Below, in pieces: positions 152 through 64,000 of a stretch of DNA of 64,000 bases. The first letter of the stretch is position 1, and the number at the start of each line of letters is the position of its first letter. A program made the position numbers and the translations under genes. The DNA lies in assembly GCF_004355185.1 (NCBI RefSeq), contig NZ_CP037922.1:3814001-3878000 (forward strand), given 5' to 3'. This DNA comes from Hymenobacter radiodurans (GTDB lineage Bacteria > Bacteroidota > Bacteroidia > Cytophagales > Hymenobacteraceae). A model generated the notes under the pieces. The model was not told the DNA's origin. It saw only the letters and a program-made list of their open reading frames with translations, and made no database searches.

Positions 152-206
152 ACCCAATATTTGCCCCCCAGCTCCGGAAAAATTTTAAAAAAATATTCGA
201 TTAGAA

Positions 207-237
207 TTTGCCCCGAATTATTCGCCTCGTACATTTG
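207..237 (+). promoter_or_regulatory. Bacteroidota-type promoter of tRNA-Gln
   Basis: TTTG at 207-210 and TACATTTG at 230-237 are separated by 19 bases. This matches the TTTG / TAnnTTTG consensus of the Bacteroidota housekeeping sigma factor. It lies 31 bases before the tRNA. Confidence 0.75.
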
Positions 238-268
238 CACACCCAAACAGCAATGCTGATGGGAATTT

Positions 269-341
269 TGTCCGATGGTGTAACTGGCAACACGCTTGAT
301 TTTGATTCAAGAAAGTCCAGGTTCGAGCCCTGGTCGGACAA
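269..341 (+). tRNA. tRNA-Gln, anticodon TTG
   Basis: This 73-base cloverleaf has a perfect 7-bp acceptor stem (TGTCCGA with TCGGACA) and an A discriminator at 341. The anticodon stem CTTGA/TCAAG (295-299 and 307-311) encloses a seven-base loop with anticodon TTG at 302-304. The T-arm contains GTTCGAGCC. No 3' CCA is encoded, since the sequence after the discriminator is CTG. It reads CAA and probably also CAG codons. Confidence 0.95.
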
Positions 342-352
342 CTGCTCGTAAC

Positions 353-404
353 GCGAAAGGCGCTGATACTTCCCTCGGGAGGAATCAGCGCCTTTCGCTT
401 TTTA
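353..404 (+). terminator. Intrinsic terminator after tRNA-Gln
   Basis: A perfect 15-bp inverted repeat (353-367 with 384-398) encloses a 16-base loop and is followed by a T run. It closes the single-gene tRNA transcript. Confidence 0.85.
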
Positions 405-494
405 GTTTAGCCTTATCGGCCTTTTAGCGTTAAATTCGGCTGTTTTTACTTACCACTCCCCTCTGCCTAGCTCAGCCATATAGCGTCTACTCTT

Positions 495-502
495 TACCTT
501 TG
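495..502 (+). promoter_or_regulatory. -7 element upstream of prs
   Basis: TACCTTTG matches TAnnTTTG and lies 34 bases before the prs start codon. No good TTTG -33 box stands at the usual spacing, so the promoter call rests on the -7 box alone. Confidence 0.5.
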
Positions 503-535
503 CCCACTCCGCTGATTCCCAACTGAATTAAACTC

Positions 536-1465: not shown

Positions 1466-1535
1466 AAGATTAGGACAGTCCAGCGTTGCCCTGCTCAGCA
1501 GGACGGCATTTTACATCCTATATAGCAAGTCCTTT

Positions 1536-2194: not shown

Positions 2195-2229
2195 GCCCAC
2201 GCCACGGATTTTGTAATCCGTTCGATTAC

Positions 2230-3050: not shown

Positions 3051-5093
3051 TTACATCACGCCGCTACCGGGCCGCACTTGCTGGCCGGGTTGCATGAGTG
3101 CCAACGAGCCGTCGGCGTTTTCGGCTAGCAATAGCATGCCCTGCGACTGAATACCTTTTATCTCTCTAGGGGCCAAATTTAGCAGCACCAACACCTGCTG
3201 CCCGACCAGCGCTTCCGGAATAAATGACTCCGCAATACCGCTCACGATGGTGCGCTGGTCCAGGCCAGTATCAACAGTGAGTTTGAGGAGCTTTTTAGTC
3301 TTGGCGACTTTCTCAGCGGCCGTAATCGTGCCTACTCGCAAATCCATGCGGCTGAATTCATCAAACGACACATTATCCTTCGCAGAAGCCGTGACAGCGT
3401 TTGCCAATTCATTAGCTTTTTTAGTGTCAAGCAGCTTTTGCACCTGCGCCTCTACCGTCGCATCTTCTATCTTTTCAAAAAGTAGAAAAGCTTCATTGAG
3501 TTGGTGTCCAACCGGGAGAGCATTCGTGTTGCCAGCAGCAGCCCAAGGGGCTTTTTCGGTATTTAACATACTACCCAAGCGCGCAGCCGTGTTGGGCAAA
3601 AATGGCTCCATCAGCGTGGTGAGGCTAGCTGTAATTTGCAGGGCGATATTGAGGATCGTAGCTACTCTTGGCTCATCCGTTTTTATAAGCTTCCAAGGCT
3701 CCGTATCCGCCAGATATTTATTACCCAAACGAGCCAGATTCATTAGCTCATTGAGCGCATCGCGGAAGCGGTAGTTCTCAATGAGCTGCCCAATACGCGC
3801 CGGGAAATCGGCCAGCTGCTGTAGGACATCTTGGTCAAATTCAGTGAGCTCATTTCGCGCCGGAATTTGCCCCCCAAAGTACTTATGCGTGAGCACTACA
3901 GCGCGATTTACGAAGTTGCCGAGCGTAGCTAAAAGCTCGTTGTTGTTGCGCGCCTGAAAATCCTTCCAGGTGAAATCATTGTCTTTATTCTCGGGTGCAT
4001 TTGCGCACAACACGTAGCGCAATACATCAGCGCGGCCCTCGAAATCCTGCAAGTATTCGTGCAGCCACACCGCCCAGTTGCGCGAAGTAGAAATCTTGTC
4101 GCCTTCAAGGTTTAGGAATTCATTGGCCGGCACATTATCGGGCAAAATATAGTCGCCGTGAGCCTTGAGCATGGCCGGAAATATGATGCAGTGAAACACG
4201 ATATTATCCTTGCCAATAAAGTGCACAAGCTTCGAGCCGCTGTCTTTCCAATAGGTTTCCCACGTGTCGGGCAGCAGGTCTTTAGTGGCGGAAATGTAGC
4301 CGATGGGTGCATCAAACCACACGTAGAGCACCTTGCCCTCAGCACCTTCTACCGGCACAGGCACGCCCCAATCCAGGTCGCGGGTAACGGCGCGCGGGTG
4401 CAGGCCCTGATCAATCCAGGATTTGCATTGCCCGTACACGTTGGCTTTCCAATCGTTTTTATGGCCTTCCACAATCCATTCACGCAGCCAGGGCTCATAC
4501 TGGTCGAGGGGCAAGTACCAGTGCTTGGTTTCGCGCAGCACCGGATTATTGCCGCTAAGCATGCTGCGCGGATTAATTAGTTCAGTGGGGCTGAGCGACG
4601 TACCGCACCGCTCGCACTGGTCGCCGTAGGCGTTTTCGTTGCCGCAGTTTGGGCACGTACCCACGATATAACGGTCGGCTAAAAATTGGTTGGCCTGCTC
4701 ATCGTAATATTGCTGCGACGTCTGCTCGATGAATTTTCCTTCTTCGTACAGCTTGCGAAAAAAGCCGCTCGAAACTTCGCGGTGCGTAGCCGACGACGTG
4801 CGGGAATAAATATCGAACGACACCCCAAAATCCACGAAAGAATCGCGGATTAATGCATGATATTTATCGACCACTTGCTGCGGTGTGACGCCTTCTTTTT
4901 GCGCCCGAATAGTGATGGGCACACCGTGTTCATCGGAGCCGCAAATAAACTTTACATCACGACCCGCACTGCGTAGGTAGCGCACATAAATATCAGCTGG
5001 CAGATAAACACCTGCCAGATGACCAATATGCACCGGACCATTGGCATATGGCAAAGCAGCTGTAACAGTATAACGCTGAAAATCAGAGGACAT
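3051..5093 (-). CDS. metG: Methionyl-tRNA synthetase
   Basis: It charges tRNA-Met for initiation and elongation. The 680 residues match the long form with a C-terminal dimerisation/tRNA-binding domain. The HIGH motif is PVHIGHLAG (residues 20-28). The zinc knuckle has CPNCG and CERCG near residues 148-165. The KMSKS loop is present as the KISTS variant in GDKISTSRN near residue 333. The final 100 residues are an EMAP/Trbp111-type OB fold ([14 protein letters not shown]). The start is the ATG at 5091-5093, just before the conserved [13 protein letters not shown]. One copy of the dispersed motif lies inside at 3866-3876 and encodes GGQI. Confidence 0.97.
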
Positions 5094-9205: not shown

Positions 9206-9964
9206 ATGTCTTCCACTACCTTCTCAAAACCAGTGATAAAAAGCCCCCCAGGTCTGCCCCTGATGCGGCAGCGGTGGAGCCAGTTGCTCTTTGCGCATTG
9301 GGCCATAGATCCAGCGCTACTGCGTCCTTACCTGCCGGCGCGACTAGAGCTGGACTTATTTGAGGGACAAGCGTGGCTGGGCGTAGTGCCGTTTACTATG
9401 AGCCATATTCGGCCGCTGGGCTTGCCAGCGGTACCGGGGCTGCATCATTTGCATGAACTGAATGTGCGAACCTACGCGCGCCTTGATGGTGTGCCGGGCG
9501 TGTGGTTTTTGTCCTTGGATGCGTCGCTGGCGCTGGGCGTGTGGGCGGCGCGCACGTTTTTCCATCTTCCCTATCTGCACGCCCGCATGAGCCTGACGCA
9601 AACGGGCGACACATTGCGTGCCACGGCGGAACGAACGCACCACGGCATTGCCTCTGCATCTTTCGCGGCCACGTGGAAGCTGGGTGAAACATTGCCCGCG
9701 TCGCAGCCGGGCACTTTGCAGCACTTCCTCACGGAGCGCTACTATCTCTATACTGCCGGCCCGAATTTGATGCAAGCGGTGCGCGGCAACGACCTTTGGC
9801 GCGGAAAATTATTTCATGAGCCGTGGACGCTTCGGGAAGCTAGGCTGAACGAATGGGACTCCACCTTAGTCGAAAGCCACGGCTTACCGACGCCCAATGG
9901 TGAGCCACTCCTGTATGCTGCCGATACCTTAGATGTGTGGGTGCAGGAGTTCAGACGGGTATAA
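9206..9964 (+). CDS. YqjF/DUF2071 family protein
   Basis: 252 residues with the N-terminal signature of DUF2071: QLLFAHWAIDPALLRPYLP, then LELDLFEGQAWLGVVPFTMS, and a conserved LHELNVRTYARLDGVPGVWF segment. The family is soluble, found across bacteria, and has no established function. Nothing in the sequence suggests a substrate. It is monocistronic. It carries a copy of the AAAAAGCCCCCC motif near its start (9238-9249), which encodes KSPPG, and another copy follows its stop. Confidence 0.85.
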   Translation: MSSTTFSKPVIKSPPGLPLMRQRWSQLLFAHWAIDPALLRPYLPARLELDLFEGQAWLGVVPFTMSHIRPLGLPAVPGLHHLHELNVRTYARLDGVPGVWFLSLDASLALGVWAARTFFHLPYLHARMSLTQTGDTLRATAERTHHGIASASFAATWKLGETLPASQPGTLQHFLTERYYLYTAGPNLMQAVRGNDLWRGKLFHEPWTLREARLNEWDSTLVESHGLPTPNGEPLLYAADTLDVWVQEFRRV

Positions 9965-10075
9965 ACACTGGTCATTTTGCCCCCCAGCGGAGTCTGCGTC
10001 ATCCACCAGAAGCGTCGTGGTTAAAGTTTTAAGCTGAGCCGAATAATATATAGCTGCACAACGGTAGCTTGCAGT

Positions 10076-10699
10076 ATGAAACACGCGTCAATTGCTGCTG
10101 GCTTCTTGGTCTTGATAGCATCCAGTTGCGGCTCTACAGTGCAGGAGCAGCGGGCAGAGCCTCGCCGGGGCGAAACCGTCACCACTGCTCCAGCCCCAAA
10201 AGCACCCGCCAAAATCACGTTTAGCAAAACCCTGGAGCGTGGTGATTTCACGGCTGATGTTACCTCGACTGGCGAAGGCAACCGCCGCGCGTTGGCGCTC
10301 ACGGCTCGCCGCGCGGGCCGTGAGATGGCAGCCATTCGCGACTCCATCGTGGGCGAAATTACGGAGGCGCTGCTCACCGATTTAAACCAGAATGAGCTGC
10401 CGGAAACGTTGGTTTTCGTGCGCGAAACTGGCTCTAACGCTCGCGGACAAGTATATGGTTTTGAGTTTGCCACCCAGAACTGGGAGCGGTTTCAATTGCC
10501 AACTTTGCCCCCCGAGGCCACCACGGGCTACCAAGGCCACGACCAGTTCACAGTAGCGGGTGCCGACCTAGTGCGCACATTCCCCATCTACCGCCCGGCC
10601 GACGCACCCATGGAGCCCACGGGCGGCAAACGCACCATTCGCTACGCTCTCGATCATACGCTTCGACTAACGGAAGTCAGCATCGAGGACCAGCCGTAG
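10076..10699 (+). CDS. Lipoprotein resembling PliI-type lysozyme inhibitors
   Basis: 207 residues with a lipoprotein signal (FLVLIASSCGS). The mature domain (about 45-205) shows a pattern I associate with PliI-like periplasmic inhibitors of I-type lysozyme in Bacteroidota: LLTDLNQNELPETLVFVRETGS, then YQGHDQFTV and LVRTFPIYRPAD. If so, it would shield peptidoglycan from animal lysozymes in the periplasm. The assignment is from memory of the family pattern, so a general 'conserved lipoprotein' is the safe reading. It carries the dispersed motif in frame as LPPE at 10504. Confidence 0.6.
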   Translation: MKHASIAAGFLVLIASSCGSTVQEQRAEPRRGETVTTAPAPKAPAKITFSKTLERGDFTADVTSTGEGNRRALALTARRAGREMAAIRDSIVGEITEALLTDLNQNELPETLVFVRETGSNARGQVYGFEFATQNWERFQLPTLPPEATTGYQGHDQFTVAGADLVRTFPIYRPADAPMEPTGGKRTIRYALDHTLRLTEVSIEDQP

Positions 10700-10953
10700 C
10701 GAAGTGGGGGGCTTTTTTGTGGTCGGAGCCAACCTTAGCATTGAATTTATGCGCCACAATGGCATCGTCTGCAATGCAGTGCAGCCCCGAACTGGGCACA
10801 CAAATAGCTAGCATACAAAAGCGACACCTTCACGGCATTTGCGCCCCTAACTGTCTAAATTATATCCTTATTTAGCCTTAGATTTCATAGGTCTGAGGCC
10901 ATGTCAATAACGTGGCAAAAAGCGTCTTCTTTACCGGTTGTTTATTTTAATTT

Positions 10954-13900
10954 ATGCGGCTGACTTTTACTGTTTTACTGAGCGTTTTAAGTATTCTAGC
11001 CAGCTTTGCCAATGCACCGGCGCCATCGGCATTCCAGTTTGTTGCCAACGCCGGCCAATGGCCTGCCCAGGTACAATTTGCTACAGCAGTACCTGGGGGG
11101 CATTTATTCTTAGAAAACAATCAGTTCACTTACAATTTGCAAGCTCTGCCCGCCGAGTACAGTCACTCGGCGGTTAGCACGAGCGAGGCCGTGCAAGGGC
11201 ATGCTTTTCGGATGCAGCTGGTAGGTGCTCAGATGAAGCCCAAAACGCTGGGCCAGGAGCGCCAGTCAACCTATCACAATTACTTCCTGGGCTCTGATCC
11301 GAAGAAGTGGGCCAGCAAGGTTCCGCTGTTTGCCGTGGTGCGGTACGAGCAAGTGTACCGTGGTGTAGATATGGTGTGGCACTCCGTGGATGGACAGCTG
11401 AAATACGATTATGAAGTAGCGCCCGGCGCCGACCCCAGCCAGATTCGGATGCGTTACGAAGGTCTCGACAAAATGGAGTTGCACGACGGCCATCTTCAGC
11501 TTCACACTCAGTTGGGGATACAAGCGGAGCAGGCGCCGATAGCCTACCAGGTGCTGGCCAACGGAAAGCGACGCCCCGTAGCCTGTCGTTTCCGGCTATA
11601 TGACAAAGAAGTGCGTTTTGAGTTGACCGAAAAGTATGACACCAGGCTGCCGCTGATCATCGATCCAGCGCTTGTATTCAGCACATACACTACCAACTCC
11701 ACGTTTTTATCGGCTAACTCGGCGGCGGGCGATGAGTATGGCAATATGTACACGGCTGGCTACTGTCAGGATGCCACTTATCCCGTCACCATTGGTGCTT
11801 ATCAAAGTCAGCAGCGAGGCCAGAACATGGGCATTTCCAAGCTAGATCCTACGGGCCGCACAGTACTATTTGCCACGTATCTGGGGGGCGGCAGCACCGA
11901 ATACCCATTGGATATGGCCATTACGGCTAAAAATGAGTTGCTTGTGCTGGCTCTTTCGGGCTCTACCAATTATCCGGTGACCTCCACCGCCTATGACAAC
12001 TCCTTCAATGGCGGCCAAGATTACGTTATTTCTCGGCTGAGTGCCGACGGTTCTTCCTTATTGGCCTCTACGTACTTAGGTGGCTCAGGCTATGAGGCAG
12101 GTTCGCTTTCCTCTAGGCCGGCAACTGTTACCAGTACTCCCACCGGCGACGTGCTGATAGGCGGAAATACGAACTCCCCTAATTTTCCAGTGCGTAACGC
12201 GTTGCAGTCTACCCTAAGAAGCATTGGTATATCTGGGAATGATGGATTTGTTACAAGCTTGAATGAGACATTATCAACGCTACAATGGTCAACCTACCTG
12301 GGCGGCACGGCCGAAGATCAGGTGCACGACATCAAAGTAGCTCCCGATGGGAGTATCTACGTTTGCGGCCAAACCGCCAGCGCCGACTTTGCGGTGGGAA
12401 GCACCGGACTAAATCCTACGTTTCGGGGTGGCCAGCTTGATGGGTTTCTGGTTCACTTAAGTGCTACGGGCAACAACCTGCTGGGGGGCACGTTTCTGGG
12501 CACAACGGCCACCGATCTGGCCCGCTTTATCGACTTTGACGCCGATGGCCAAGTGTTAGTAGCCGGCGCTACGGCTGGCAGCTACCCCGTTACGAGCGGA
12601 GCATTCACGCTTCAGACGCCAAATACGGACAAAGTTTTTATCCACTGCTTTAATCCGGCGCTGACCAGCACTATTTTCTCCACCCAAATTTCCACTGGGG
12701 TTAGCGGCTCCATGGAGTCGTCTAAGCTGACTACGGCTTTCAACCTCGACGCCTGCAACCGCATCTATTTTTGCGCCTACGGAAGTACCAGCACCTCCCC
12801 TACTACGTCCGATGCTTTTTCCAGCGCCCAGCGCAGCATCTACTTAGCCGTTTTGAGCCCGGGTGCCCGCCGCCTGGAGTACGGTACGTATTTCGGCGGG
12901 CCAGCCAACGGCGGAACGCACCTCCACCCAGCTGCTTCCAACGAAATCACAAAGCAGGGCGTGTTGTATCACATTGAATGCACAACTGCTACAAGCTTCA
13001 CGACGACGCCGGGCACCTATTCTCCTACCAAAACGGTAGGCACCAATAGCGGAGCGGCATTTAAGTTTAACATGCTGCCAACGGGGGCTTCTCTCCCAAC
13101 GCTGACGGCCGCGCTGCCTCCGGTACCGACAGGTTGCGCGCCCTATACGGTTCAGTTCAGCAATGCCGGCAGCGGAGCTGAAACCTACGAATGGGATTTC
13201 GGCGACGGTAGCCCACTTGAAACCACGGCCACGCCAACCCACCGCTTCGAGCGTCCTGGCACGTACCAAGTTCGGCTGACGGTAACACGCACGGGCGGCT
13301 GCGGTCCGCAGCGTCTGACGACCACTACAATGGTCGGCGTTACCAGCCCGGCGGCGCCTTTGGTATCGGCGGTGGCGGCCGTGCCGGCGGGCTGTGCGCC
13401 CTATGTTGTTCAGTTTCAGAATACCAGCACCAGTACCGGCCCCGTGCGCTACCAGTGGGACTTTGGCGATGGCAGCCAGGAAATTGGAATTGCCCCCCAA
13501 CACCGCTTTACAATACCCGGCCGGTACGTGGTGCGGCTGACGGCTGAGCAAGCAAGTCCTTGCGGTACTCAACGCAGCGTGAGTGAAACCATCGTTGTGG
13601 TTGATCCGCCAGCTCCCACACTGATTGCGGCATTTCAGGGCCCCATCGCAGTCTGCGCGGCTAATCCCGTGGAGTTTGTGAGCACTGGCCAAGGTGCCCA
13701 GCGCTACGAGTGGAACTTTGGCGATGGCACCCCAATAGAAACATCTGAAAAGCCCCTGCATCGCTTTCTGCGTGCGGGCACCTACCAGGTACAACTTACT
13801 GTGAGTCTCACGAATGTGTGTGGCAACAAGCAGGAAGTAATCCGCCGCAATATTGTGGTGCAGGACCCGCCAGCCCTCGTGGAGCGAATCGACTCGCTGG

Positions 13901-14333: not shown

Positions 14334-15143
14334 TCAATTTTGCCCCCCACGCTGGCGTACGGCCTCAAAGGTCATGATGGCCGTGCAGGTGCTCACGTTG
14401 AGCGAATCGATGTAGCCTGCCATCGGAATCTTGATCTGAGCATCGGCGGCCGCGAGCCATTCGTCGCTGAGGCCGGTGGCTTCGGTGCCCATCACAATGG
14501 CGCTGGGGCCGCTGAAGTCCATATTGGTGTATAGCTCCGTGGCGGCGGGAGTAGTAGCAAAGCTGCGAATACCATGCTGGCGCAGCCAGGCTACTACCTC
14601 GGCGGTTGGGGCGGCCACCACCTGATTAGTGAATACGCACCCAATGCTGGCCCGGATAACGTTGGGATTATATAGGTCGGTGCGCGGGTCGCACACAATG
14701 ACGGCATCTACGCGGGCTGCGTCGGCGGTGCGGAGCACGGCCCCCAGGTTACCAGGTTTTTCTACGGCTTCCAGAATAATCAGGAGCGGGCTGGGGGGCA
14801 ATTTCAAATCGGTGAGGGCGCGGCGCGGGGGGCGAGCCAAGGCCAAGATTCCGTCGGAGCCTTCGCGGTAAGCCACTTTCTCGAATACCGCTTTCGATAC
14901 CGTGAAGTACTCTGGGCGGGGGGCAAATAACGTTTCCAGCTCCCGCTGCCTCGTTGGGTCGGTCAGTTCCGGACACACAAACAACGTCGTAACCTCCACG
15001 CCAGCTTGCTGGGCGATAGTCAGCTCGCGGTAGCCCTCAATAATGGTCAGGTTTTGCTGCCGACGCTCAGCGGGCTTTTGCTGCAAGCGTAGCAGGTTCT
15101 TGATGCGCGGATTCTGGGGGCTGGTAATCGGGTCGGGGGGCAT
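14334..15143 (-). CDS. TrmH/SpoU family RNA 2'-O-methyltransferase
   Basis: It transfers a methyl group from SAM to a ribose 2'-OH in tRNA or rRNA; the target cannot be read from sequence. 269 residues. An N-terminal substrate-binding domain (about 1-95, with NLTIIEGYREL) precedes the SPOUT knot. The three SpoU motifs are clear: EKPGNLGAVLRTADA, IVMGTEATGLS and IPMAGYIDSLNVS. The start is the ATG at 15141-15143, which is itself part of a dispersed-motif copy (ATGCCCCCCGA, giving MPPD). A longer frame upstream has no better start. It converges on the large surface protein with only 14 bases between stops. Confidence 0.9.
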   Translation of the reverse strand: MPPDPITSPQNPRIKNLLRLQQKPAERRQQNLTIIEGYRELTIAQQAGVEVTTLFVCPELTDPTRQRELETLFAPRPEYFTVSKAVFEKVAYREGSDGILALARPPRRALTDLKLPPSPLLIILEAVEKPGNLGAVLRTADAARVDAVIVCDPRTDLYNPNVIRASIGCVFTNQVVAAPTAEVVAWLRQHGIRSFATTPAATELYTNMDFSGPSAIVMGTEATGLSDEWLAAADAQIKIPMAGYIDSLNVSTCTAIMTFEAVRQRGGQN

Positions 15144-15313
15144 TTTTCCGAGGAGTAAAGACAATGTGGCATAACCGGGCGGCACACAAATGTAGAAGCA
15201 AAGCGCACGAGCCGTTTGCTTATCGTTTGAGGGCCGCGCTCATAAAAGTGCGAACTTTACCCTTTACCACCATTACCGGTGCTTGTTCCCTCCTCAATTC
15301 TACTTGAAATCAA

Positions 15314-16846
15314 GTGCGGCTGAATCTTAATACTAAAATCAGGCTGGGCTTTGGCATTGCGCTGATTGTGCTGCTGCTTACCTCCCTGTTCGCTTACATC
15401 AGTATTCAGCAGGTGGCGTACTACACCAATCGGGTGGAGCATACCTACAAGGTATTGCAGCACAGCACCGAATTGCGCACCCAAATGCGTGATGCGCAAG
15501 GCTCTGTTCGGGGCTACTTATTGCTGGGCGATAAGTCATACTTGAATAATTACGATGACCTGATCATGGGCGTGCGCGGCAGCTACGAGGACCTGCGGCA
15601 CCTCACCTTCGATAATGCCGACCACCAGCGGCGCCTGGATACGCTGGGCACCCTTTTAGCCCAAGAAATTCTGCTGCTAGATAGCTGGCGGCAGCAACCT
15701 CCCAGTCCCTACGCGGCCCGCGACTTAGTGAGGGGCGACCGGCGCCTGCTAGACCAGATTCGGGCCACGATTTCGCGCATCAAAAACTCCGAAGATCTAC
15801 TGCTGCACAGGCGAACCCGCGACCGTGATATCTGGGAGCGCATGGCCCCGCTGGCCATTATTGGCTCGGCAGTACTGGCTATTGTATTGGTGCTCTGGCT
15901 GTTTAGCCGCATTGTGCAAGAGCTGAAGGAAAAAGAGCGCTTACAGGCCGAGCTGGCCGCCGTCAACCACAATACGGCCCAGCGCATTCAGCTTATCGAA
16001 AACCTGGCGGAACAGGTAGTGCTGGGTGATTACAAGGTTAAAATTCGGGACAAGGAGCAGGATAGCATCGGCAAGCTGGCCGGCTCTCTCAATCGCATGA
16101 CCCAAACCCTCGATCAAACCTTCGAGGCGCTGAACAAGCGTAACCTAGAGCTGGACCAGTTTGCCTACGTAGCCTCCCACGACCTGAAAGCGCCTTTACG
16201 CGGCATTGGAGCCTTGGTAAAGTGGATAGAGGAGGAATTACCACACGAAGTATCAGCGCAGATGCGGGAGTATCTGGTCATGCTGAAGGGCCGCCTCACC
16301 CGCCTCGATGACCTCATCAACGGCCTGCTGGCGTATGCCCGCGCCGGCCGCACTCAGCCTTTACCGGAGGAAGTAGATGTGCGCGCACTGGTAGCGGAAG
16401 TAGCCGATATGGTAGTTCCGGCCGGATTCACGGTCGATTTGCCCCCCAGCCTGCCATCCTTGCTCACCGACCGGCTGAGTCTGCAACAGGTATTTACTAA
16501 TCTGCTCAGCAACGCTGTGAAGCACCATCACAGCAGCCAAGGCCACCTTAATATTGGGGTGCAGGAGCTGAAAAAGGAGTACGAGTTCAGTATAACCGAC
16601 GATGGCCCCGGCATCGCGCCGGAATACCACGAAAAAATCTTCCAGATATTCCAGACCCTGCGCGACCGAAATACGGCGGAGAGTACCGGTATCGGGCTCA
16701 GTATTGTGCGCAAGATCATCGAAGAACATAAAGGCAGCATTCGGGTGCAATCGGTACCGGGGCAGGGTACTACCTTTGTGTTTACGTGGCCCAAAACGCT
16801 GGCGCCTGTTTCTGCGGTGACCACGTCAGCCAGTGTTCTTTTTTAG
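15314..16846 (+). CDS. Membrane sensor histidine kinase (CHASE3-like sensor)
   Basis: 510 residues from a GTG start. TM1 is near 8-30, followed by a periplasmic helical domain (about 31-175) with CHASE3-like features, TM2 near 176-198, and a HAMP-like linker. The phospho-acceptor His is in YVASHDLKAPLRGI near residue 288. The HATPase domain (380-495) shows N-box NLLSNAVKHH, DDGPGIAPEY and GIGLSIVRKIIEEH. The H-box and overall layout resemble the phytochrome-type kinases that pair with single-domain regulators. The response regulator follows 20 bases later. One copy of the dispersed motif (16438) encodes LPPS between the kinase boxes. The ligand is unknown. Confidence 0.9.
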   Translation: MRLNLNTKIRLGFGIALIVLLLTSLFAYISIQQVAYYTNRVEHTYKVLQHSTELRTQMRDAQGSVRGYLLLGDKSYLNNYDDLIMGVRGSYEDLRHLTFDNADHQRRLDTLGTLLAQEILLLDSWRQQPPSPYAARDLVRGDRRLLDQIRATISRIKNSEDLLLHRRTRDRDIWERMAPLAIIGSAVLAIVLVLWLFSRIVQELKEKERLQAELAAVNHNTAQRIQLIENLAEQVVLGDYKVKIRDKEQDSIGKLAGSLNRMTQTLDQTFEALNKRNLELDQFAYVASHDLKAPLRGIGALVKWIEEELPHEVSAQMREYLVMLKGRLTRLDDLINGLLAYARAGRTQPLPEEVDVRALVAEVADMVVPAGFTVDLPPSLPSLLTDRLSLQQVFTNLLSNAVKHHHSSQGHLNIGVQELKKEYEFSITDDGPGIAPEYHEKIFQIFQTLRDRNTAESTGIGLSIVRKIIEEHKGSIRVQSVPGQGTTFVFTWPKTLAPVSAVTTSASVLF

Positions 16847-45650: not shown

Positions 45651-45698
45651 TGACAAGCGGGGGGCTTTTTAGCCTGAACTAAGTCAACTTATCAAGCT

Positions 45699-47200: not shown

Positions 47201-48085
47201 TCAATGGCCTCCATTCTCATGATAATGGCCAAAAAATCGCAGCAGCAATTCATTGACAGCTTCGGGATCTTCGTGCTGCACCCAATGCGTAGCCTTATCA
47301 AAATAGGTAAGACGACCAGCCTCGCACCACGCCAGGCTTTCCTGCGCCATATTGGCGTTGAGAAAAGCATCTCGCTTGCCCCACACAATGTGCACCGGCA
47401 CCCGCACCCGCCCCGGCGGATTCAATTGCCGCACGTAGCGCGCCGCCGCCCGATACCAATTGAGCATGCTGGTAATAGCCCCAGGCTGCGCCCAAGCTGC
47501 TCGGTACTGCTTTAAGTCTTCATTACTAAATGCCCCCCGACGGCTGGTTCCACGCAGTGTTTGCTCGCCGAGTTGGTAATTATTAAGGCTGAATGCCTTC
47601 TCGGGCAGCCACGAAAGCTGAAAAAAGAAAATATACCAACTCTTGCTTAACTGCCGGAAGCTGCGCCGTAGCTCCTGAGTCATTACCCTCGGGTGCGGCA
47701 CATTTAGGATTGCCACCCGGGCCACTCGATCAGGAAAATAGGCCGCCAGATTCCACGCTACGAGCGCGCCCCAGTCGTGGCCGACCAGAAAGGCGTGCTC
47801 GTGCCCGGCCGCGTCAATCAGGCCAATGATATCGGCTGCCAAAGCCGGCATCTTATAATCGGCCAAGCGCGGAGGCTTGTTGCTAAGGTTATAGCCGCGC
47901 TGGTCAGGCGCCCACACCCGGTAGCCGGCCTCAGCCAACGCCGGGATTTGGCGGCGCCAACTGTACCAGAACTCGGGGAAGCCGTGCAGCAGTATAATCA
48001 GTGGGCCATCCTGCGGCCCACACTGCACAACGTGCAGCGTAATGCCGTTGGTAATGACGTTGTGGTGTTCGAGTTCGTAGCGCAC
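47201..48085 (-). CDS. Alpha/beta hydrolase, epoxide-hydrolase-like
   Basis: 294 residues from a GTG start. Oxyanion HGFPEFWYSW (near 35-45). The nucleophile motif is GHDWGALVAW, with Asp rather than Ser as in epoxide hydrolases and haloalkane dehalogenases. The catalytic His is in THWVQHEDP near the C-terminus, and the acid is likely in VWGKRDAFL. Cytoplasmic. Substrate not predictable. Confidence 0.85.
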   Translation of the reverse strand: MRYELEHHNVITNGITLHVVQCGPQDGPLIILLHGFPEFWYSWRRQIPALAEAGYRVWAPDQRGYNLSNKPPRLADYKMPALAADIIGLIDAAGHEHAFLVGHDWGALVAWNLAAYFPDRVARVAILNVPHPRVMTQELRRSFRQLSKSWYIFFFQLSWLPEKAFSLNNYQLGEQTLRGTSRRGAFSNEDLKQYRAAWAQPGAITSMLNWYRAAARYVRQLNPPGRVRVPVHIVWGKRDAFLNANMAQESLAWCEAGRLTYFDKATHWVQHEDPEAVNELLLRFFGHYHENGGH

Positions 48086-49750: not shown

Positions 49751-49885
49751 CCGAGGGCTTTTGATGGCTTAAAAATAGCAACTACACTTCATATACACAA
49801 TACTACCTTAAGCTAATTTTTTTAGGAAAGGTTTCAAAAGCACATCTTAAAAGTGCTGGTTTGGGTGAGTATTTGCCCCCCAGTG

Positions 49886-50055: not shown

Positions 50056-51975
50056 ATGCTTGCTTACCTCGTGTCTGCTTTCCAGTTGTTGCCCCATTTC
50101 CGGTGGCGGCTGGTGCTGCCGTTGGTGTTCTTAGTAATTATAGCGCAGGCCCAGGACCCGCAGCCATCTGTACCCGACACGGTGCGAACTCCGCTTGAAA
50201 CCCGCCCTGACTCCTTGCGGCGGCGCTTCGATGAGGAGCGCATTCTAACGGGTCTGCAAGCGTATGCCAAGCGCAAGACCATTGCCGGCAAGGCGGTGGC
50301 GGCGCTGTTCAACTTCACGGCTCGGGCCGAGGAAAGAGCCGGCCTCGATGCTACCCTGCTCGATCGCCAATACAGCCAGCACAACTATAAGATTGTGCGC
50401 AGCATCAACATTACCACGCTCGACGCCTTCGGTTACAGCATCAACAACCCCGACCGCAAGCCGCGCAACTTTCTGGAGAAGGGGGGCAATATTTTCCACA
50501 TTCGCACGGCCCCGTCGCGGGTGCGGCAGCTGCTGCTGTTTCGGGTGGGCGAAGAGCTAGAACCCCAAGAGCTAAGCGAAACCGAGCGTTTGTTGCGCCA
50601 GACGGGTGAGTTGCTTGACGCCCGTGTGTTTGTGAATGAGGCCACCACCACGCCCGACAGCGTGGACGTTCAGATCATTACCAAGGATGTATTCAGTTTG
50701 AGCGGCTCGCTCCAGATTCGTGATGTGGATGCGGCCGTCATTGGGCTGAACGATGTAAACTTTATGGGGCTGGGCCATCAGTTTCGGAACCGCTACGAGT
50801 ATGGTCGCGCCAGCCCCCAGCCTTGGCGCTATCGGGGTAGCTACTTAGTGCCTTTCCGCAACTTTGTCAATGCCGAGGTACGCTACCGTAACGAGTATGA
50901 AAACAAAGAAATAGGCGCTTACGTGGCCCGCGACTTTGTTTCCATCAATACCAAGTACGCCGGCGCGGTGGCGCTCGATTTTTATGATCGGCTTATTCAG
51001 CTACCACAATTGCCCCCCATCGATCCGTTTCGCCTGGAGCGGCTGCGCTACAGCACGCGTGATGTATGGCTGGGGCGGGCCTTACGCCTAAAAAGCTACG
51101 ACCTAGGTTACGAGAACCCGGCCCGATTTGTCGTTTCTGGGCGCTTCTTGAACACAACGTATGGCGAGCGGCCCATTGAGGATTATGCCGACGCGAGCCT
51201 TTTTCTAGGCACCATCGGCTACAGCGTACGGCACTATTACAAAGACAAATACCTCTTCGGTTTTGGTCGTACCGAGGACGTACCGACGGGCACGTTGCTC
51301 AGCCTTACCGCGGGCTACGAGCTAAACGAGTTGGGGAATCGGCGCTACTATGGCGTACGAGCTTCCAGTGGCTTATACAGCGTACGGCGGGGTTACCTAT
51401 ATCTGAGTGGTGAGTATGGGTCTTTTGTGCGTGCGCGCGACCGGGACTGGCAGCAAGGCCTGCTTAGCACCCAGGTTCTGTATTTCACCCGCCTCTATAA
51501 TACGGGTAACTATCAGTGGCGCCATTTTCTGTGGAACCGTATGGACTTGGGATTCGACCGGCGCCCTGGCGAGCAGCTGCTATCTATTGAAGGCGAACGG
51601 GGCCTGCGCGGCTTTCGCACCGATGGTACCCTGCGCGGCACGAGTCGCTTTGTGCTCAACTATGAGGCTACTATGTACACGCCCGTCTCTTTCCTGGGCT
51701 TCCGCCTGGCCGGTGTGGCCTTTGCTGATGCCGCTTGGCTGGCTACTACCCCCGGCCGCGACTCCCCATTTCTCGACAAGCCATTTACCGGTTTCGGCTT
51801 GGGTTTGCGTTTCCGCAACGAGTACACCGCGCTCCGCACCATTCAGATTTTGTTTGGCTTCTATCCGCGGGGCCAGTTAACTAATAATGGCTACCGAATC
51901 TTTGAGAATTCCGGGGCCTACTATGACTTCAGTGATTTCAATTTCACCCGCCCCGGTGTTGCGCCGTATCAGTAG
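50056..51975 (+). CDS. BamA/TamA-like outer-membrane protein
   Basis: 639 residues. Signal peptide (about 1-32), then a Bacteroidota-type N-terminal domain (about 45-150) and a POTRA-like region with RVRQLLLFRVGEELEPQELSETERLLRQTG. The C-terminal half is a 16-strand-like Omp85 barrel, with the GLGLRFRNEYTALRTIQILFGF ending and GERGLRGFRTDGTLRGTSRFV (the RGF-like lid motif) near 520. It acts in outer-membrane protein insertion or export. The ATG at 50056 is chosen over a TTG at 50011. Confidence 0.82.
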   Translation: MLAYLVSAFQLLPHFRWRLVLPLVFLVIIAQAQDPQPSVPDTVRTPLETRPDSLRRRFDEERILTGLQAYAKRKTIAGKAVAALFNFTARAEERAGLDATLLDRQYSQHNYKIVRSINITTLDAFGYSINNPDRKPRNFLEKGGNIFHIRTAPSRVRQLLLFRVGEELEPQELSETERLLRQTGELLDARVFVNEATTTPDSVDVQIITKDVFSLSGSLQIRDVDAAVIGLNDVNFMGLGHQFRNRYEYGRASPQPWRYRGSYLVPFRNFVNAEVRYRNEYENKEIGAYVARDFVSINTKYAGAVALDFYDRLIQLPQLPPIDPFRLERLRYSTRDVWLGRALRLKSYDLGYENPARFVVSGRFLNTTYGERPIEDYADASLFLGTIGYSVRHYYKDKYLFGFGRTEDVPTGTLLSLTAGYELNELGNRRYYGVRASSGLYSVRRGYLYLSGEYGSFVRARDRDWQQGLLSTQVLYFTRLYNTGNYQWRHFLWNRMDLGFDRRPGEQLLSIEGERGLRGFRTDGTLRGTSRFVLNYEATMYTPVSFLGFRLAGVAFADAAWLATTPGRDSPFLDKPFTGFGLGLRFRNEYTALRTIQILFGFYPRGQLTNNGYRIFENSGAYYDFSDFNFTRPGVAPYQ

Positions 51976-52088
51976 CGCCGCAGCTTATCCTGGTCATGGT
52001 AGGCTGACTTGACCCTATTGCTATTCTACCGTAGAATGGCTGCGGTGCCGGCAAATAACCTGAGTGAAATTTGCCCCCCAGCCTTCAG

Positions 52089-54430: not shown

Positions 54431-54485
54431 TACACTAACAAAAAAGCCCCCCAGATTGTGTCTGGGGGGCTTTTTTGTTAGTGTA
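54431..54485. terminator. Perfect 25-bp terminator built on the G6C motif
   Basis: TACACTAACAAAAAAGCCCC leads into a 25-base arm (54431-54455) that pairs perfectly with 54461-54485 around a 5-base TTGTG loop. It carries the motif on both arms and serves the convergent genes. Confidence 0.95.
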
Positions 54486-54828: not shown

Positions 54829-55038
54829 TGTCTATACCGTGGAGCCTTGGTTTAGCTACCACAAATCAATAGACACCGATTTTGACGTAGGGTTTAATGA
54901 GGCACATCAGGAATTTGGGCCACTTTTCCACCGCAACTCGCTTGCAGCTAGCGTTCTGCTAAGCATAACTCATAAACATAGGTTGGGGGGCTTTTTACAA
55001 TGCGCCAGCTCAGACAGAAGCTTCTTTTAGGCTAAAGC

Positions 55039-55900: not shown

Positions 55901-56923
55901 CTATATCTGGTCGTCGTCCTCTTCTTTCGACTTGGGGGGCGATTCTAGCATGTGCGGCCAATGCGAGGCAGGATTGGGGGGCAAATTATCCGGCCAGGCA
56001 ATGTGTACCAGCGCATCGCCTTGGTTCACAACCGGCATATGGTTCAGGCCAATAACGTAACCCGCCGTTGGCGTTTCGAGCCGCACGGTGCCTTCGCCAT
56101 ATGGGTCGGCTACGCTACCATACACCTCCCCTTTTTCCAGAAATTGCCCATTCTGCACATGGCTCCGAAACAAGCCCGCGAACTTAGCCCGCAGCCACGT
56201 ATGCCGCCGACACACAATGCTCGGCTGGGCGGCTGCCGGAGCTTCAGCCAGCATTCCTAGTTGATGTAGAACGCGGAATGTGCCCGCTATAGCCAGCTCA
56301 ATTCCGGCTTCATCGAGGCGTAACGATTCGCCGGTTTCGTACACGATAATACGGCGGCCCTGCTGCATGGCCGCCTCGCGCAGGGAGCCGGGCCGCAACG
56401 ACGCGTGCAAAGTAAACGGAGCCGCAAAAGCCGACGCCAGCACATCAGTTTGTTCATCTTCGCCCAGCAGACAGCGCACTTGCGGCATGTTGGCCCGCGC
56501 CGCGCCACCCGTATGAAAATCGATGCCGTAGTCGATAAGCGGCATGATTTCGCGCATAAAGCGGTGGGCCACTCTGCTGGCCAAGGACCCGCGCGGATTG
56601 CCCGGAAAGCTCCGATTCACATCCTTGCCGTCGGGCACCTCTCGCGAGAAATTGAGAAAGCCGTAGATGTTGAGGATAGGAATGGCGATGATAGTGCCGC
56701 GCAAAGGCTGCAGCAAATCGCGGCGCACCAGGCGACGAATTGTTTCAATGCCGTTTACCTCGTCGCCGTGCATCCCCGCCATTAGCAGCACCGTTGGCCC
56801 CGGTTCCTGCGCCCGATAGACGTACACGGGCACATCAATGACGGTACGGGAAGGCAGGCGCGAAATTACCAACCGCGTCAGCACCCGTTCGCCCGGCCTG
56901 ATAACCAAGCCGTTGATTAACAT
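55901..56923 (-). CDS. Aspartoacylase/succinylglutamate desuccinylase family zinc hydrolase
   Basis: 340 residues from the ATG at 56923. M14-like zinc fold: MAGMHGDEVNGIETIRRL gives two ligands, NVNRSFPG-type segment (DVNRSFPGNPRG) follows, DFHTGGAAR the third, and IVYETGESL the catalytic Glu. The C-terminal domain is beta-rich. It lies 75 bases after rimK in a three-gene operon. It may remove acyl or glutamyl groups; within this operon an eraser of RimK products is inferred, not shown. Confidence 0.85.
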   Translation of the reverse strand: MLINGLVIRPGERVLTRLVISRLPSRTVIDVPVYVYRAQEPGPTVLLMAGMHGDEVNGIETIRRLVRRDLLQPLRGTIIAIPILNIYGFLNFSREVPDGKDVNRSFPGNPRGSLASRVAHRFMREIMPLIDYGIDFHTGGAARANMPQVRCLLGEDEQTDVLASAFAAPFTLHASLRPGSLREAAMQQGRRIIVYETGESLRLDEAGIELAIAGTFRVLHQLGMLAEAPAAAQPSIVCRRHTWLRAKFAGLFRSHVQNGQFLEKGEVYGSVADPYGEGTVRLETPTAGYVIGLNHMPVVNQGDALVHIAWPDNLPPNPASHWPHMLESPPKSKEEDDDQI

Positions 56924-56998: not shown

Positions 56999-57949
56999 TT
57001 ACCCTACTACATCGGGCTGGGTATCCGGCTGGGGGGCTTTTCTGGTCGTTTTTTTAGCGGAATCCTTGCGCTTGCTGTGTACCAGCGCCGCCGTGTACTC
57101 TATGATTTTGCCGGCAATATCCAGGCCGGTAGCCTTCTCAATTCCTTCCAGACCCGGCGATGAATTCACTTCCAATACCAGCGGTCCACGCTTGCTCTGC
57201 AACATATCGACGCCGGCAATGCCCAAGCCCAGCGCTTTGGTAGCCAGCAATGCAGCAGCTTTTTCGGCCCGGCTCAGCTTCACTAGCTTACCCGATCCGC
57301 CCCGGTGCAGATTCGAGCGAAACTCGCCTTCCTTGCCTTGGCGCTTCATGGCACCCACCACCTCGCCATTCACCACAAATGCCCGCAGGTCGGCGCCCTT
57401 GCTTTCGGCAATAAACTCCTGCACAATGATGCGGGCCTTAAGGTTGTGAAAGGCCTCAATTACCGATTGGGCGGCTTTTTCAGTCTCAGCCAGCACCACT
57501 CCCAGGCCTTGCGTACCTTCTAGAAGCTTAATAATCACCGGGGCGCCACCAACCTGCTTGATCATTTCGGGCACCTCATCGGAGTAGTTGGTGAAAGCGG
57601 TTTTGGGCATTCCGACTCCGGCCCGCGACAGAATCTGCATAGAGCGCAGCTTATCCCGTGAGCGCACAATAGCTTGACTATCGATGGCCGTGCGCACTTT
57701 CATCATCTCAAATTGCCGCACTACGGCCGTGCCGTAGAATGTCACCGAGGCGCCAATGCGCGGGATAATGGCATCGAAACCCGTCAGTTTCTTGCCTTCG
57801 TAAATTATGCCTGGGTCGCCTTTCTCCAGCACCAGGTTGCAATGCAGATGGTCGACGACCACCGCCTCGTAGCCGCGCTGCGTGGCAGCTTCGACAAGGC
57901 GCATGGTGGAGTACAGCCTCGGCTCGCGCGAGAGAATGGCCAGTTTCAT
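56999..57949 (-). CDS. rimK: RimK-like ATP-grasp ligase
   Basis: 316 residues. ATP-grasp features: [53 protein letters not shown], and [19 protein letters not shown]. coli RimK adds Glu residues to the C-terminus of ribosomal protein S6. It is 300 residues there, so the Lys/Arg/Pro C-terminal tail here (about 295-316) is slightly longer. Upstream is the RimB-like protease gene, downstream the M14-like hydrolase. Confidence 0.92.
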
Positions 57950-58489: not shown

Positions 58490-58685
58490 CGTAGAGGCAA
58501 TATAAGGGAAGCAACGGGTTTGCAGCCACCAAGAGCGCATCGCTAGCAAAAATGTAAGTCAGCGGCCTTCACCCTAATGGAGTAAAGAAGAAGCGTGGGC
58601 AGAATTAAATGCAGCTAACGTTTTTTGTAACGGGTTGGGGGGCTTTTTAGCGTGAACCCTAGACACATCCTACCGTTCCCACAGA

Positions 58686-61825: not shown

Positions 61826-61936
61826 AAAAAATGCCCCCCAAAACGATATAGTTTGCCCTAACCCGACTTACAGGCCCACGGAGCCCTTATTACCCCAATA
61901 CCTTTTAGGTATGACGGACCGTGGGGGGCATTTTTT
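61826..61936. repeat. Inverted pair of the ATGCCCCCC motif variant
   Basis: AAAAAATGCCCCCCA (61826-61840) and TGGGGGGCATTTTTT (61922-61936) are exact complements, 81 bases apart. The second arm is inside the 3' end of cmk, so it is a poor terminator but a clear motif pair. Confidence 0.7.
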
Positions 61937-62651
61937 CGTCGTTGGGCACGGCTAAGTCGCCAACTGCGGCCAGCGAAAATAGCGTAGCTGAGACGCGCTC
62001 CAGCACGAAATCTACCTGCTCATCAATGGTAATATGCGTGGTATCGAGCATGATGGCATCGGCAGCGCGGCGCAATGGACTTTCGGCGCGGGTCGAGTCG
62101 ATGTGGTCGCGCTTGGTGAGGTTGTCAATAATAGCTTCGACCTCCACATGCTCACCATTCATAGCCAACTCCTCCTGCCGACGTAGCGCCCGCACGCGGG
62201 TTTCGGCGGTCATAAACACCTTTACTTCCGCATCCGGGAACACCGTGGTGCCAATGTCGCGGCCGTCCATCACTACTCCGCGCTTGCGGCCCATGCGCTG
62301 CTGCTGACTGACCATAGCGTGGCGCACGGCCGGTATCACCGACACCTCACTTACGGAGTTAGAGATAACCATCTGACGAATCTCATCTTCGCGGATTTCG
62401 CCGTCCAGACACAATTCGTTTCGCCCCGTGCGGCGGTTGCGCTTAAACGAGATGTGCATATCGTGCAGGGCCTGCTCGATACGGGGCAAATCGTCGAACG
62501 CAATTTTATGTTCGAGCAAATACAGGGTCACGGCCCGGTACATGGCGCCCGTGTCAATGTAGGCATACCCTAACTCGGCGGCTACGGCTTTGGCGGTAGT
62601 GCTTTTACCGCACGAAGAGTAGCCGTCGATGGCAATGACGATTTTTCTCAT
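61905..62651 (-). CDS. cmk: Cytidylate kinase
   Basis: It phosphorylates CMP and dCMP. 248 residues, P-loop DGYSSCGKSTTAKAVAAELG, then the CMP-binding YIDTGAMYRAV, GRDIGTTVFPDA, and KRDHIDSTRAESPLRRAADA. The C-terminal tail (about 225-248) is an extension, ending with NDEKMPPTVRHT. The ATG overlaps the upstream gene's TGA stop by 4 bases (ATGA), so the two are translationally coupled. Confidence 0.95.
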   Translation of the reverse strand: MRKIVIAIDGYSSCGKSTTAKAVAAELGYAYIDTGAMYRAVTLYLLEHKIAFDDLPRIEQALHDMHISFKRNRRTGRNELCLDGEIREDEIRQMVISNSVSEVSVIPAVRHAMVSQQQRMGRKRGVVMDGRDIGTTVFPDAEVKVFMTAETRVRALRRQEELAMNGEHVEVEAIIDNLTKRDHIDSTRAESPLRRAADAIMLDTTHITIDEQVDFVLERVSATLFSLAAVGDLAVPNDEKMPPTVRHT

Positions 62652-63064
62652 GGGGAAGTCGTTCGGCGCGGGGGCAAGGGGACGGGAATCCAGGTTCGAC
62701 GACGTGGTATGGCAGCCGCGGCTAAGCGGGTGGGCACAGAGTGGAAGAATACCATTACGGACTCAACCGCACCATGCACCAATTGCCGCTCCACGTAGCT
62801 GAACGGATTGATAAAGGTACAACCAGCTATCTGTACGCCGACCAGCCCAGAGGCGTCGCGGTGCCAGTGGCCCCCAAAGCTACGGATTATGCACTCCCCC
62901 AAAAAGCACCCCAGCGCATTTACTACTCCGGGCTGAGCTTCATGGCTAATGCTACTGCGCTCACGATCAATAAATTCGGTGAGCGTTGACACCGCTACTT
63001 CGTCAAAAGAAGGGATGTTTAAATTTTGCCGCACGGCTTCGGCGGCGCTTCGTAGTTCTTCCAT
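62648..63064 (-). CDS. Paralogue 1 of an unnamed NALGCFLGECI family
   Basis: 138 residues. Helical N-terminus SAAEAVRQNLNIPSF, then the conserved GVVNALGCFLGECIIRSFGGHW, beta region, and VMVFFHSVPTRL. The end is a Pro/Arg-rich extension not present in its paralogue. The stop codon overlaps the cmk start. I do not know a function. The next gene, 63185, is a clear paralogue. Confidence 0.72.
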   Translation of the reverse strand: MEELRSAAEAVRQNLNIPSFDEVAVSTLTEFIDRERSSISHEAQPGVVNALGCFLGECIIRSFGGHWHRDASGLVGVQIAGCTFINPFSYVERQLVHGAVESVMVFFHSVPTRLAAAAIPRRRTWIPVPLPPRRTTSP

Positions 63065-63184
63065 CGTAGAAAAAACGCAGCATCCGGTAACTGACGCAAG
63101 TAAGGTTCAAAATGAAAACTACCGGATTAGTTAAGTTTTAAACTTACAACAGAAGAAAATAATATTTCAGGGAAAATATAGTAA

Positions 63185-63579
63185 TTAAATCCAATTTTTG
63201 CGCGGTGCTTCCGCCTCCAAGCGGGCCGGAATCTGCTCAAAAAATGTCACTACCGAATTAGCTAGGCCACTGTTTAACTGTTGCCCTACGCGATAAAAAG
63301 GATTTAGAAATAGCTTCTCGCGCAAGCCGATGCCCGTGGTTCCGTCTGGCCCGGTGGCCCACTCGCCCTGGTAGGTTTGCACGATGCACTCACCCAGAAA
63401 GCAACCTAAAGCATTGATCACACCTTCCCGGCTCGCCTCAGGCAATTGCGCCCGCTGTCCTTCAATAAAGTCGGAAAGGCGCTGTACCCCGGCGGCGTCG
63501 AAGCCATTGACCTGCAATTGTTGGCGCACGGCATCGGCGGCTGCGCGGAGGGCGGTGAGAGGGTTTTGCTCGGGGGCAT
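63185..63579 (-). CDS. Paralogue 2 of the NALGCFLGECI family, start frame-broken
   Basis: 131 residues if one C is restored at 63572-63576, giving the start ATGCCCCCCGAG (MPPEQNPLTALRAAADAVRQQ). The sister gene has SAAEAVRQNL at the matching place. Without that base only a GTG at 63529 is available. Conserved GVINALGCFLGECIVQTYQGEW and VVTFFEQIPARL. The ATG-C6 start copy matches the motif-built start of the SpoU gene at 15143. Confidence 0.68.
63572..63576 (-). other. Frame break at the start codon of paralogue 2
   Basis: ATGCCCCCGAGC has five Cs; six would put ATG in frame with the conserved sequence. The C6 form is the ATGCCCCCCGA motif variant seen at 15143. Confidence 0.7.
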
Positions 63580-63640
63580 TTTCAGATGTAAGTAAAGCGG
63601 AATAAGCCGTTCAGCCTATTAGCTGAGTGGGCGATATGCA

Positions 63641-63802
63641 TTAGCAGTCGTGTGTGGGGCAGGGCATACGGCCGCCTTTGCTCTGGCGCTTAAAGGCTTT
63701 GGTTTTCTTCTGTTGGGCTGTGCGCTGGGCGCAACCAGCCATGGGAGCCACGGCAGAACCAGTCAGCACTGCCGCCAGCAACAAGGTCATTATCTTTCTC
63801 AC
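63641..63802 (-). CDS. Small lipoprotein
   Basis: 53 residues from a GTG at 63800-63802, which gives a basic start before TLLLAAVLTGSAVAPMAGC (lipobox, Cys near 24). An ATG at 63790 is an alternative. The mature part is short and basic (TKAFKRQSKGGRMPCPTHDC). Function unknown; a CAAATATA element lies 28 bases upstream on its strand. Confidence 0.6.
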   Translation of the reverse strand: MRKIMTLLLAAVLTGSAVAPMAGCAQRTAQQKKTKAFKRQSKGGRMPCPTHDC

Positions 63803-63898
63803 GAGACGAATTTGGCAGGTATAATTAACCAAATATAAGGTTCTTTACCCGTCCGCCGGCCTGGGGGGCAAATTCTCAATCCTTACCTTTTCCGCCTT

Positions 63899-64000
63899 AT
63901 GCCCGCCGAATTCAGCCTGCGCGCCAACGTCGTTAATCTGTTTGCTAACACCATTACTCCGGCTACCATTTACGTGGCTGGGGGGCAAATTCAGCGCATT
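63899..64000 (+). CDS. Probable adenine deaminase (5' part only)
   Basis: 34 residues from ATG at 63899 before the window ends: MPAEFSLRANVVNLFANTIT then PATIYVAGGQIQRI. The pattern (RANVVN, then a beta strand ending in a GxI turn) fits the N-terminus of the adenine deaminase/amidohydrolase group, which hydrolyses adenine to hypoxanthine. The GGQIQ segment is written by a motif copy where relatives usually have ENGKI. Partial. Confidence 0.55.
   Translation, partial: MPAEFSLRANVVNLFANTITPATIYVAGGQIQRI

Follow-up and report, generated by a model that had tools for sequence, protein, structure and literature searches.

A clade-specific word of about 13 bases dispersed through the Hymenobacter radiodurans genome: a candidate self-recognition sequence for transformation

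What keeps one short, C-rich word at dozens of places in a single stretch of bacterial chromosome, on both strands, inside genes and between them? The question is raised by 64 kb of the Hymenobacter radiodurans genome (54% GC; assembly GCF_004355185.1, contig NZ_CP037922.1, positions 3,814,001 to 3,878,000), hereafter the window. An initial annotation of this DNA had described a six-base G or C tract with an AT-rich flank, recurring more than 60 times, and had likened it to the DNA uptake sequences (DUS) of Haemophilus and Neisseria. The window contains 72 runs of at least six C or G, of which 71 are exactly six and one is seven; CCCCCC is matched 36 times on the plus strand and 37 times on the minus strand, and GCCCCCC 68 times. 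The nine-base word TTGCCCCCC or its complement occurs 37 times (23 plus, 14 minus), the number first reported. The large excess is confirmed, the expectation being 0.96 under an order-3 Markov model and not 0.5 as originally estimated.

The element was defined from 884 kb of the genome, in which tracts of C5, C6, C7 and C8 or longer number 845, 685, 17 and 4, respectively. G stands before 97% of the 685 exact C6 runs, and the five bases upstream of that G are 81-95% A/T. Relative to the run, positions -7 to -5 are A-rich, -4 to -2 are A/T and -1 is G; the base 3′ of the run is A in 72% and G in 24% (A or G in 96%). Because of this flank profile and the run-length counts, the recurring unit is a word some 13 bases long rather than any C6 tract, with the consensus (A)AAWWTGCCCCCC(A/G) and exactly six C. 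The preference for an AT flank noted earlier is borne out, and with flank, G and length all fixed the excess is not shared equally by C6 tracts at large. The word (consensus AAWWTGCCCCCCR) is not palindromic.

Genome-wide, WWWWGCCCCCCR was found 2856 times (1443 plus, 1413 minus) as against 24 times (10 and 14) for the reversed pattern, a 119-fold excess that affects both strands and is not confined to the window. For TTTGCCCCCCA there are 149 copies where 1.03 are expected. A word of 9-12 bases lying far over expectation on both strands of the whole genome is what would be looked for in an uptake sequence. The density of one copy per kb that had been proposed holds for all C6 runs (72 in 64 kb); the strict word has a density near 0.60 per kb on the large contig.

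The excess is limited to certain species, a pattern that the initial annotation had named as support. Only four of 120 Hymenobacter genomes are carriers, with 2392-3304 copies each: the window's genome (G000), H. qilianensis (G010), H. roseosalivarius (G064) and G538. The remaining 116 are at background for the WWWWGCCCCCCR-type word, and a smaller set of 73 genomes of the genus gives the same picture. In a survey of 395 genomes of the phylum, a set which includes just three other Hymenobacter, the window's genome was the sole carrier. The word is present at loci of H. sp. BT188, H. qilianensis and H. roseosalivarius, and these three species and the window group as a single, fully supported clade in a tree of PBP1C, in which H. 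qilianensis, whose copy is interrupted, has a long branch. The same four named carriers are also one clade in a wider quick tree.

Within this clade the word is held in place. Comparison with H. roseosalivarius aligned 132 of 180 kb at 84.0% identity; 113 sites fall in this region, 86 of them were aligned, and the core is intact at 73, substituted at 10 and altered by indels at three. Matched WWWG[GC]6R controls are intact in 60 of 163 cases (P 1e-13) and all-GC 7-mers in 2262 of 5276 (P 2e-15). The columns from -5 to +6 of the G are 92-100% identical, and the surroundings 71-89%. A smaller test found cores intact at 17 of 20 sites in BT188, 12 of 16 in H. roseosalivarius and 13 of 17 in H. 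qilianensis, with all-GC 7-mers at 59%, 46% and 46%, respectively.

Outside the clade the same positions lack the word. Sixty-one loci (60 from named Hymenobacter, one from Hymenobacteraceae) gave 630 aligned site-cells; these represent 24 of the 57 strict sites in the window, in species related to one another, and are not independent. The 219 cells gapped within the word were set aside. The word is present in none of the 411 ungapped cells: nine show the core but lack the flank, 93 are one core base off, 110 are two off and 199 at least three. The leading differences from outgroup to window are G>C at core position 3 (213) and C>T in the flank (173 and 171). At the copy at 30401-30411 (plus strand), H. 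lucidus and H. daecheongensis have TTATTCTGCCGCCCGCC; CTG CCG CCC in these species corresponds to TTG CCC CCC here, Leu-Pro-Pro being encoded in both. Among sense sites, Leu-Pro-Pro is also the peptide most often encoded (42). Given the absence of the word in all 411 cells, the substitutional differences and the retained Leu-Pro-Pro, the word was built largely in place, through changes that proteins tolerate. A flank changing toward A/T and a core changing by G>C transversion would be unlike a single mutational bias. An inserted repeat, repetitive extragenic palindromic (REP) or other, was rejected, since 411 of the 630 outgroup cells align without gaps and differ by substitutions, the 219 gapped cells being left unjudged.

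The copies show no polarity. The 464 kb around the window contain 289 strict sites; with genes called roughly from a simple codon score, 195 fall inside genes (0.55 per kb) and 94 are intergenic (0.87 per kb), so that, as initially described, genes and intergenic regions both contain the word. Those within genes are oriented 94 sense and 101 antisense, and the spacing is no more even than random (coefficient of variation 1.05 vs mean 0.94). The matches lie on two contigs, C1 (190,065 bp), which is taken to be a plasmid, and C2 (4,728,901 bp). A polarity test of WWWGC6R in 50 segments of C2 gave 336 plus and 319 minus copies (heterogeneity p 0.13), in agreement with the genome-wide parity of strands and with no replichore-type skew of the kind expected of Chi or of FtsK-orienting polar sequences (KOPS).

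C1 is about 5- to 13-fold poorer in the motif than C2. The strict word (WWWW) was seen at nine places on C1 among the matches listed, a number taken as full because both strands of C1 are represented, or 0.05 vs 0.60 per kb; the looser WWWGC6R gave five copies in two 20-kb samples of C1 (62-65% GC), or 0.13 per kb, and 655 in 1.04 Mb of C2, or 0.63 per kb. The motif had also been reported missing from an AT-rich islet. The window has a single strongly AT-rich stretch (34% GC, at 27-28 kb, about 1 kb long), and scarcity in AT-rich DNA is explained by composition, as the ratio of observed to composition-expected copies is 55-69 in all four GC classes. As a separate observation, the DNA from L086:16356 to L088:800 comprises two AT-rich segments side by side, of about 12 and 11 kb (43-44% GC). 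They are free of the motif except at a spot between them, carry sugar epimerase, glycosyltransferase and acyltransferase genes, and look like an acquired polysaccharide cluster.

Inverted pairs of DUS, and of the uptake signal sequences (USS) of Pasteurellaceae, are used as terminators, and such pairs had been proposed here. Sixteen neighbouring pairs lie less than 60 bp apart in the 464 kb: seven of the +- type and three each of the -+, ++ and -- types. Six of the seven +- pairs are outside called genes, and five of those six end in GGGGGGCTTTT. Of the window's own pairs, that at 54443-54473 forms a perfect hairpin, terminator-like on both strands, its arms being the copies at 54443-54453 (plus) and 54463-54473 (minus); the hairpin at 42459-42497 has an imperfect arm, the copy at 42483-42493 (minus) forming its 3′ arm, and a weaker one is found near 46540. 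The inverted pairs thus exist in small numbers, and terminator use would involve a minor share of the copies.

Other species of the genus possess other words. Samples of about 20-80 kb were surveyed for most species, k-mer counts in them revealed further dispersed words, and three words, including that of the window, were counted genome-wide in the 120 genomes. The word GGGGGTAGG (loci L055, L145, L146, L193 and L195) is most abundant in five genomes (3530, 3409, 3140, 3123 and 2419 copies), followed by three with 1259, 1250 and 1149; six more have 294-711, and none of the remaining 106 exceeds 147. The word GTGGCCTAG (L015, L061 and L264-L266) reaches 2235, 2226, 2103 and 1290 copies in four genomes, and the remaining 116 have no more than 122. 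High counts of two of the three words never coincide in one genome.

These dialects follow phylogeny most cleanly for the window's word and less so for GGGGGTAGG. The two GTGGCCTAG species in the quick tree are sisters. Four of the five top GGGGGTAGG genomes are present in that tree and fall in one clade, which also contains two relatives that lack the word and two that carry GGGCTAGCC/GCTAGGGG; lower GGGGGTAGG levels recur in other clades, and this word is less cleanly clade-bound than that of the window. Conservation in place extends to TGGCCTAG, an eight-base part of GTGGCCTAG: of 11 sites aligned between H. fodinae and H. wooponensis (86% identity), 8 retain it whole, as against 0 of 7, 1 of 12, 1 of 12 and 0 of 8 sites in four non-carriers (83-85% identity). 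The window's word shares no core with GGGGGTAGG or GTGGCCTAG. Most of the other words contain TAG, a possible parallel, and for the present a lead, to the CTG that DUS dialects share (Frye 2013, PMC3630211).

Some further candidates were met in this survey. Possible words GGGCTAGCC/GCTAGGGG, ACCTAGGT/AGCTAGGT and GGGGCCCTG were noted in samples of 22-40 kb (L054, L050, L133-L134 of G062, L153-L154 of G012, and L045); GCCGAAATC (L034) and GGGGCCCTG (L045) were looked at and left undecided. Pontibacter burrus has a dispersed CTATAGTT (L067, 28 copies in 22 kb), CTATAGTTG is a candidate word in Pontibacter, and a weaker (GC)ATAGCGTTTT was seen in Adhaeribacter (L062, L063); these hint that the phenomenon extends to other Hymenobacteraceae. 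The words GGAGAGGGG (L046), TTGCGTCTC (L006) and GAAGCATCT (L026) were rejected as dialects, being palindromic, arranged in tight inverted pairs and REP-like.

We give an even chance to the proposal that the motif is a clade-specific self-recognition sequence for transformation, working like a DNA uptake sequence through a receptor that is not a pilus. The word would have arisen on the stem of the carrier clade, and a surface or periplasmic protein would prefer DNA that carries it. DNA from dead kin would then enter by a pilus-independent route ending in ComEC, and recombination of the incoming fragments would spread and restore copies, biased uptake acting as the drive. Some AAAAG copies may have been reused as terminator arms. 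The wider proposal is more tentative and falls a little short of even: Hymenobacter chromosomes may be labelled by at least three mutually exclusive uptake dialects, read by a putative receptor other than a type IV pilin, which would represent a second, pilus-independent origin of sequence-specific transformation, in Bacteroidota, and a mating barrier within the genus.

The USS of Pasteurellaceae consist of a core with an A/T-rich flank. They resemble the Hymenobacter word in this and in their inverted pairs. Their proposed origin is also alike, USS being regarded as products of point mutation in pre-existing sequence (Bakkali 2007, PMC1939737). They differ in the word itself and in having a type IV minor pilin, ComN, as the predicted receptor (PMC12616744). 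The DUS of Neisseriaceae are likewise an over-represented short word, whose dialects are shared by members of a species and track the phylogeny (Frye 2013, PMC3630211), whereas Hymenobacter belongs to the phylum Bacteroidota and the window's word has no core in common with the other two. Within Bacteroidota, Riemerella anatipestifer transforms without a detected pilus homologue and needs ComEC, DprA and envelope proteins, among which DUF5689 is a candidate surface family (PMC8459023). It is thus like the carriers in having ComEC and no detected pilus homologues; unlike them, it has no uptake word named in the available text of that report, and its DUF5689 is unmatched in the carriers searched. 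Among the titles listed from the open-licence literature on uptake sequences and transformation in Bacteroidota, Spirosoma and Hymenobacter, none dealt with such a motif, in keeping with the initial annotation, which knew of no published element; it may be in print elsewhere.

The likeness to uptake sequences suggested at the outset therefore stands for the excess, the strand parity, the point-change origin, the conservation, the inverted pairs, the scarcity on C1 and the dialects. Several results weigh against it. ComEC was found in 19 of 20 genomes, the sole miss being an assembly that is 82% complete, and it occurs equally in carriers and non-carriers. T2SSE, the ATPase family that serves both type IV pilus and type II secretion systems (PF00437), was over the cut-off in none of the 20 genomes; the search covered this ATPase family and not the pilins themselves. 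Thirteen of 14 control genomes were over the cut-off, and G041 gave two weak sub-threshold stretches. Because no such ATPase was over the cut-off, a receptor of the known kind, a type IV minor pilin, is unlikely. Of the competence genes that the initial annotation had proposed to look for, comEC was found, and a pilus motor over the cut-off was not. As a receptor, DUF5689 was rejected, with no match in the carriers G000, G010 and G064; it is matched in 11 of 26 genomes, nine of them over the cut-off, and in two loci that were read it adjoins an apparent susD gene. The neighbours of comEC in the window's genome are carotenoid, PhoH, enoyl-CoA hydratase and similar genes, with no receptor candidate among them. 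The uptake reading is carried by the evolutionary pattern, because the machinery searches gave ComEC but no pilus ATPase and no DUF5689.

The pattern itself also has points on the other side. For all three words, 98 of the 120 Hymenobacter genomes are at background. The 21 single-change core variants of TTTGCCCCCCA total 35 copies vs 17.8 expected, none having more than six. Recognition looks close to all-or-nothing, and near-words are enriched only about twofold, unlike the drive in known uptake systems, which enriches near-words (Bakkali 2007, PMC1939737). The scarcity on C1 may reflect a recent arrival of that contig; it is about fivefold on the looser WWW count, and the strict figure rests on the nine places listed. 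Finally, H. qilianensis has only 130 of 233 cores intact, with 66 indels and 37 substitutions, and controls at 42 and 44%. The tract indels are probably homopolymer errors of that assembly, because H. roseosalivarius shows indels at only three of 86 sites; without the indel sites, 130 of 167 cores are intact.

The best surviving alternative, which we consider unlikely, is direct selection on the binding site of a clade-specific chromosomal protein, a nucleoid organiser or similar, whose changes in specificity the dialects would track. The sharp conservation in place with few near-words, the chromosome-wide density without polarity and the poverty of C1 would all be expected of it, and this possibility, raised in the initial annotation, stays as a rival. 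The random-like spacing and the location of two thirds of the copies inside called genes speak against it, and whole-word replacement between related clades would be better known from uptake dialects.

Somewhat more doubtful is a process like that of the highly iterated palindrome HIP1, in which a methyltransferase and a mismatch repair step make and keep the word and each dialect corresponds to a different methyltransferase. HIP1 and the alternate HIPs are likewise hyper-abundant and replace each other in some cyanobacterial lineages, with matching methyltransferases (Elhai 2015, PMC4390886). HIPs, however, are palindromic and methyltransferase-linked, whereas the Hymenobacter word is no palindrome and neither of the two methyltransferase families searched is common to the carriers: PF00145 is in none of the four (6 of 20 genomes) and PF01555 in two of the four (12 of 20), being absent from the window's genome. 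This alternative is weakened by these results.

A polar recombination or segregation signal resembling Chi or KOPS is improbable. The word is G-rich, non-palindromic and present roughly once per 1-2 kb, as such a signal might be, and GGGGTAGGG, a longer form of GGGGGTAGG, contains GGGTAGGG, which we take to fit the KOPS consensus GGGNAGGG. Signals of this type are skewed along the replichore; no overall orientation bias was found for any of the three words sampled, the strongest single segment for GGGGGTAGG and GTGGCCTAG being L145 (15 to 4), and the near parity over the 50 C2 segments disfavours the Chi-like role that had been considered. A mutational hot spot or homopolymer artefact, to which the H. 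qilianensis indels at 66 of 233 sites might point, is very improbable given the exact length of six, the fixed G before and A or G after, the A/T flank, the different directions of the core G>C and flank C>T differences, the indels at just three of 86 sites against H. roseosalivarius, and the presence of the word in separately deposited genomes.

If the uptake reading is true, sequence-specific self-recognition in transformation reaches Bacteroidota without a pilus motor, the receptor is directly findable, and the three words and the tree make the origins of dialects open to study. Should the function be a different one, a clade-specific word at nearly 3000 conserved sites, replaced in some sister clades, calls for explanation.

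The strict copies in the window number 57, and they were located by word search unless stated otherwise. The first, at 160-170 (plus), reads TTTGCCCCCCA. Further plus-strand copies lie at 3866-3876, 9976-9986, 10504-10514, 13489-13499, 14339-14349, 16438-16448, 17648-17658, 18560-18570, 19112-19122, 21123-21133, 22479-22489, 24010-24020, 25606-25616, 47529-47539, 49872-49882, 51009-51019, 52070-52080 and 61830-61840, and minus-strand copies at 11094-11104, 14792-14802, 14917-14927, 15134-15144, 22657-22667, 25461-25471, 55975-55985, 61922-61932, 63862-63872 and 63979-63989. The AAAG form is found at 9240-9250, 17416-17426 and 18831-18841 on the plus strand and at 10705-10715, 17493-17503, 45658-45668, 46058-46068, 54984-54994, 57030-57040 and 58636-58646 on the minus strand. 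The two arms of the perfect inverted pair and the copy in the imperfect hairpin were located by word search and hairpin check.

Word search was combined with comparison of species for the copies between 28 and 41 kb, including that at 30401-30411. The copy at 28769-28779 (plus) is at the same position in BT188 and H. roseosalivarius, and an AAAG form follows at 28789-28799 (plus). That at 31150-31160 (minus) is broken in some clade members, and that at 37304-37314 (plus) varies inside the clade. Others are at 31835-31845, 32508-32518 and 33597-33607 (minus) and at 33322-33332 and 37283-37293 (plus). The copy at 43802-43812 (plus), for which species were likewise compared, is in an aldehyde dehydrogenase gene, and H. 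daecheongensis is one base off (GCCGCCC).

Four copies lie within a PBP1C-like gene, at 39380-39390 and 40157-40167 (minus) and at 40481-40491 and 40703-40713 (plus). In H. qilianensis (L060, L103-L122) many C6 length changes relative to the window's genome were seen, and the PBP1C-like gene is interrupted. A bacterial alpha-2-macroglobulin gene of the window is apparently split into two open reading frames, 28455-31307 and 31675-34041.

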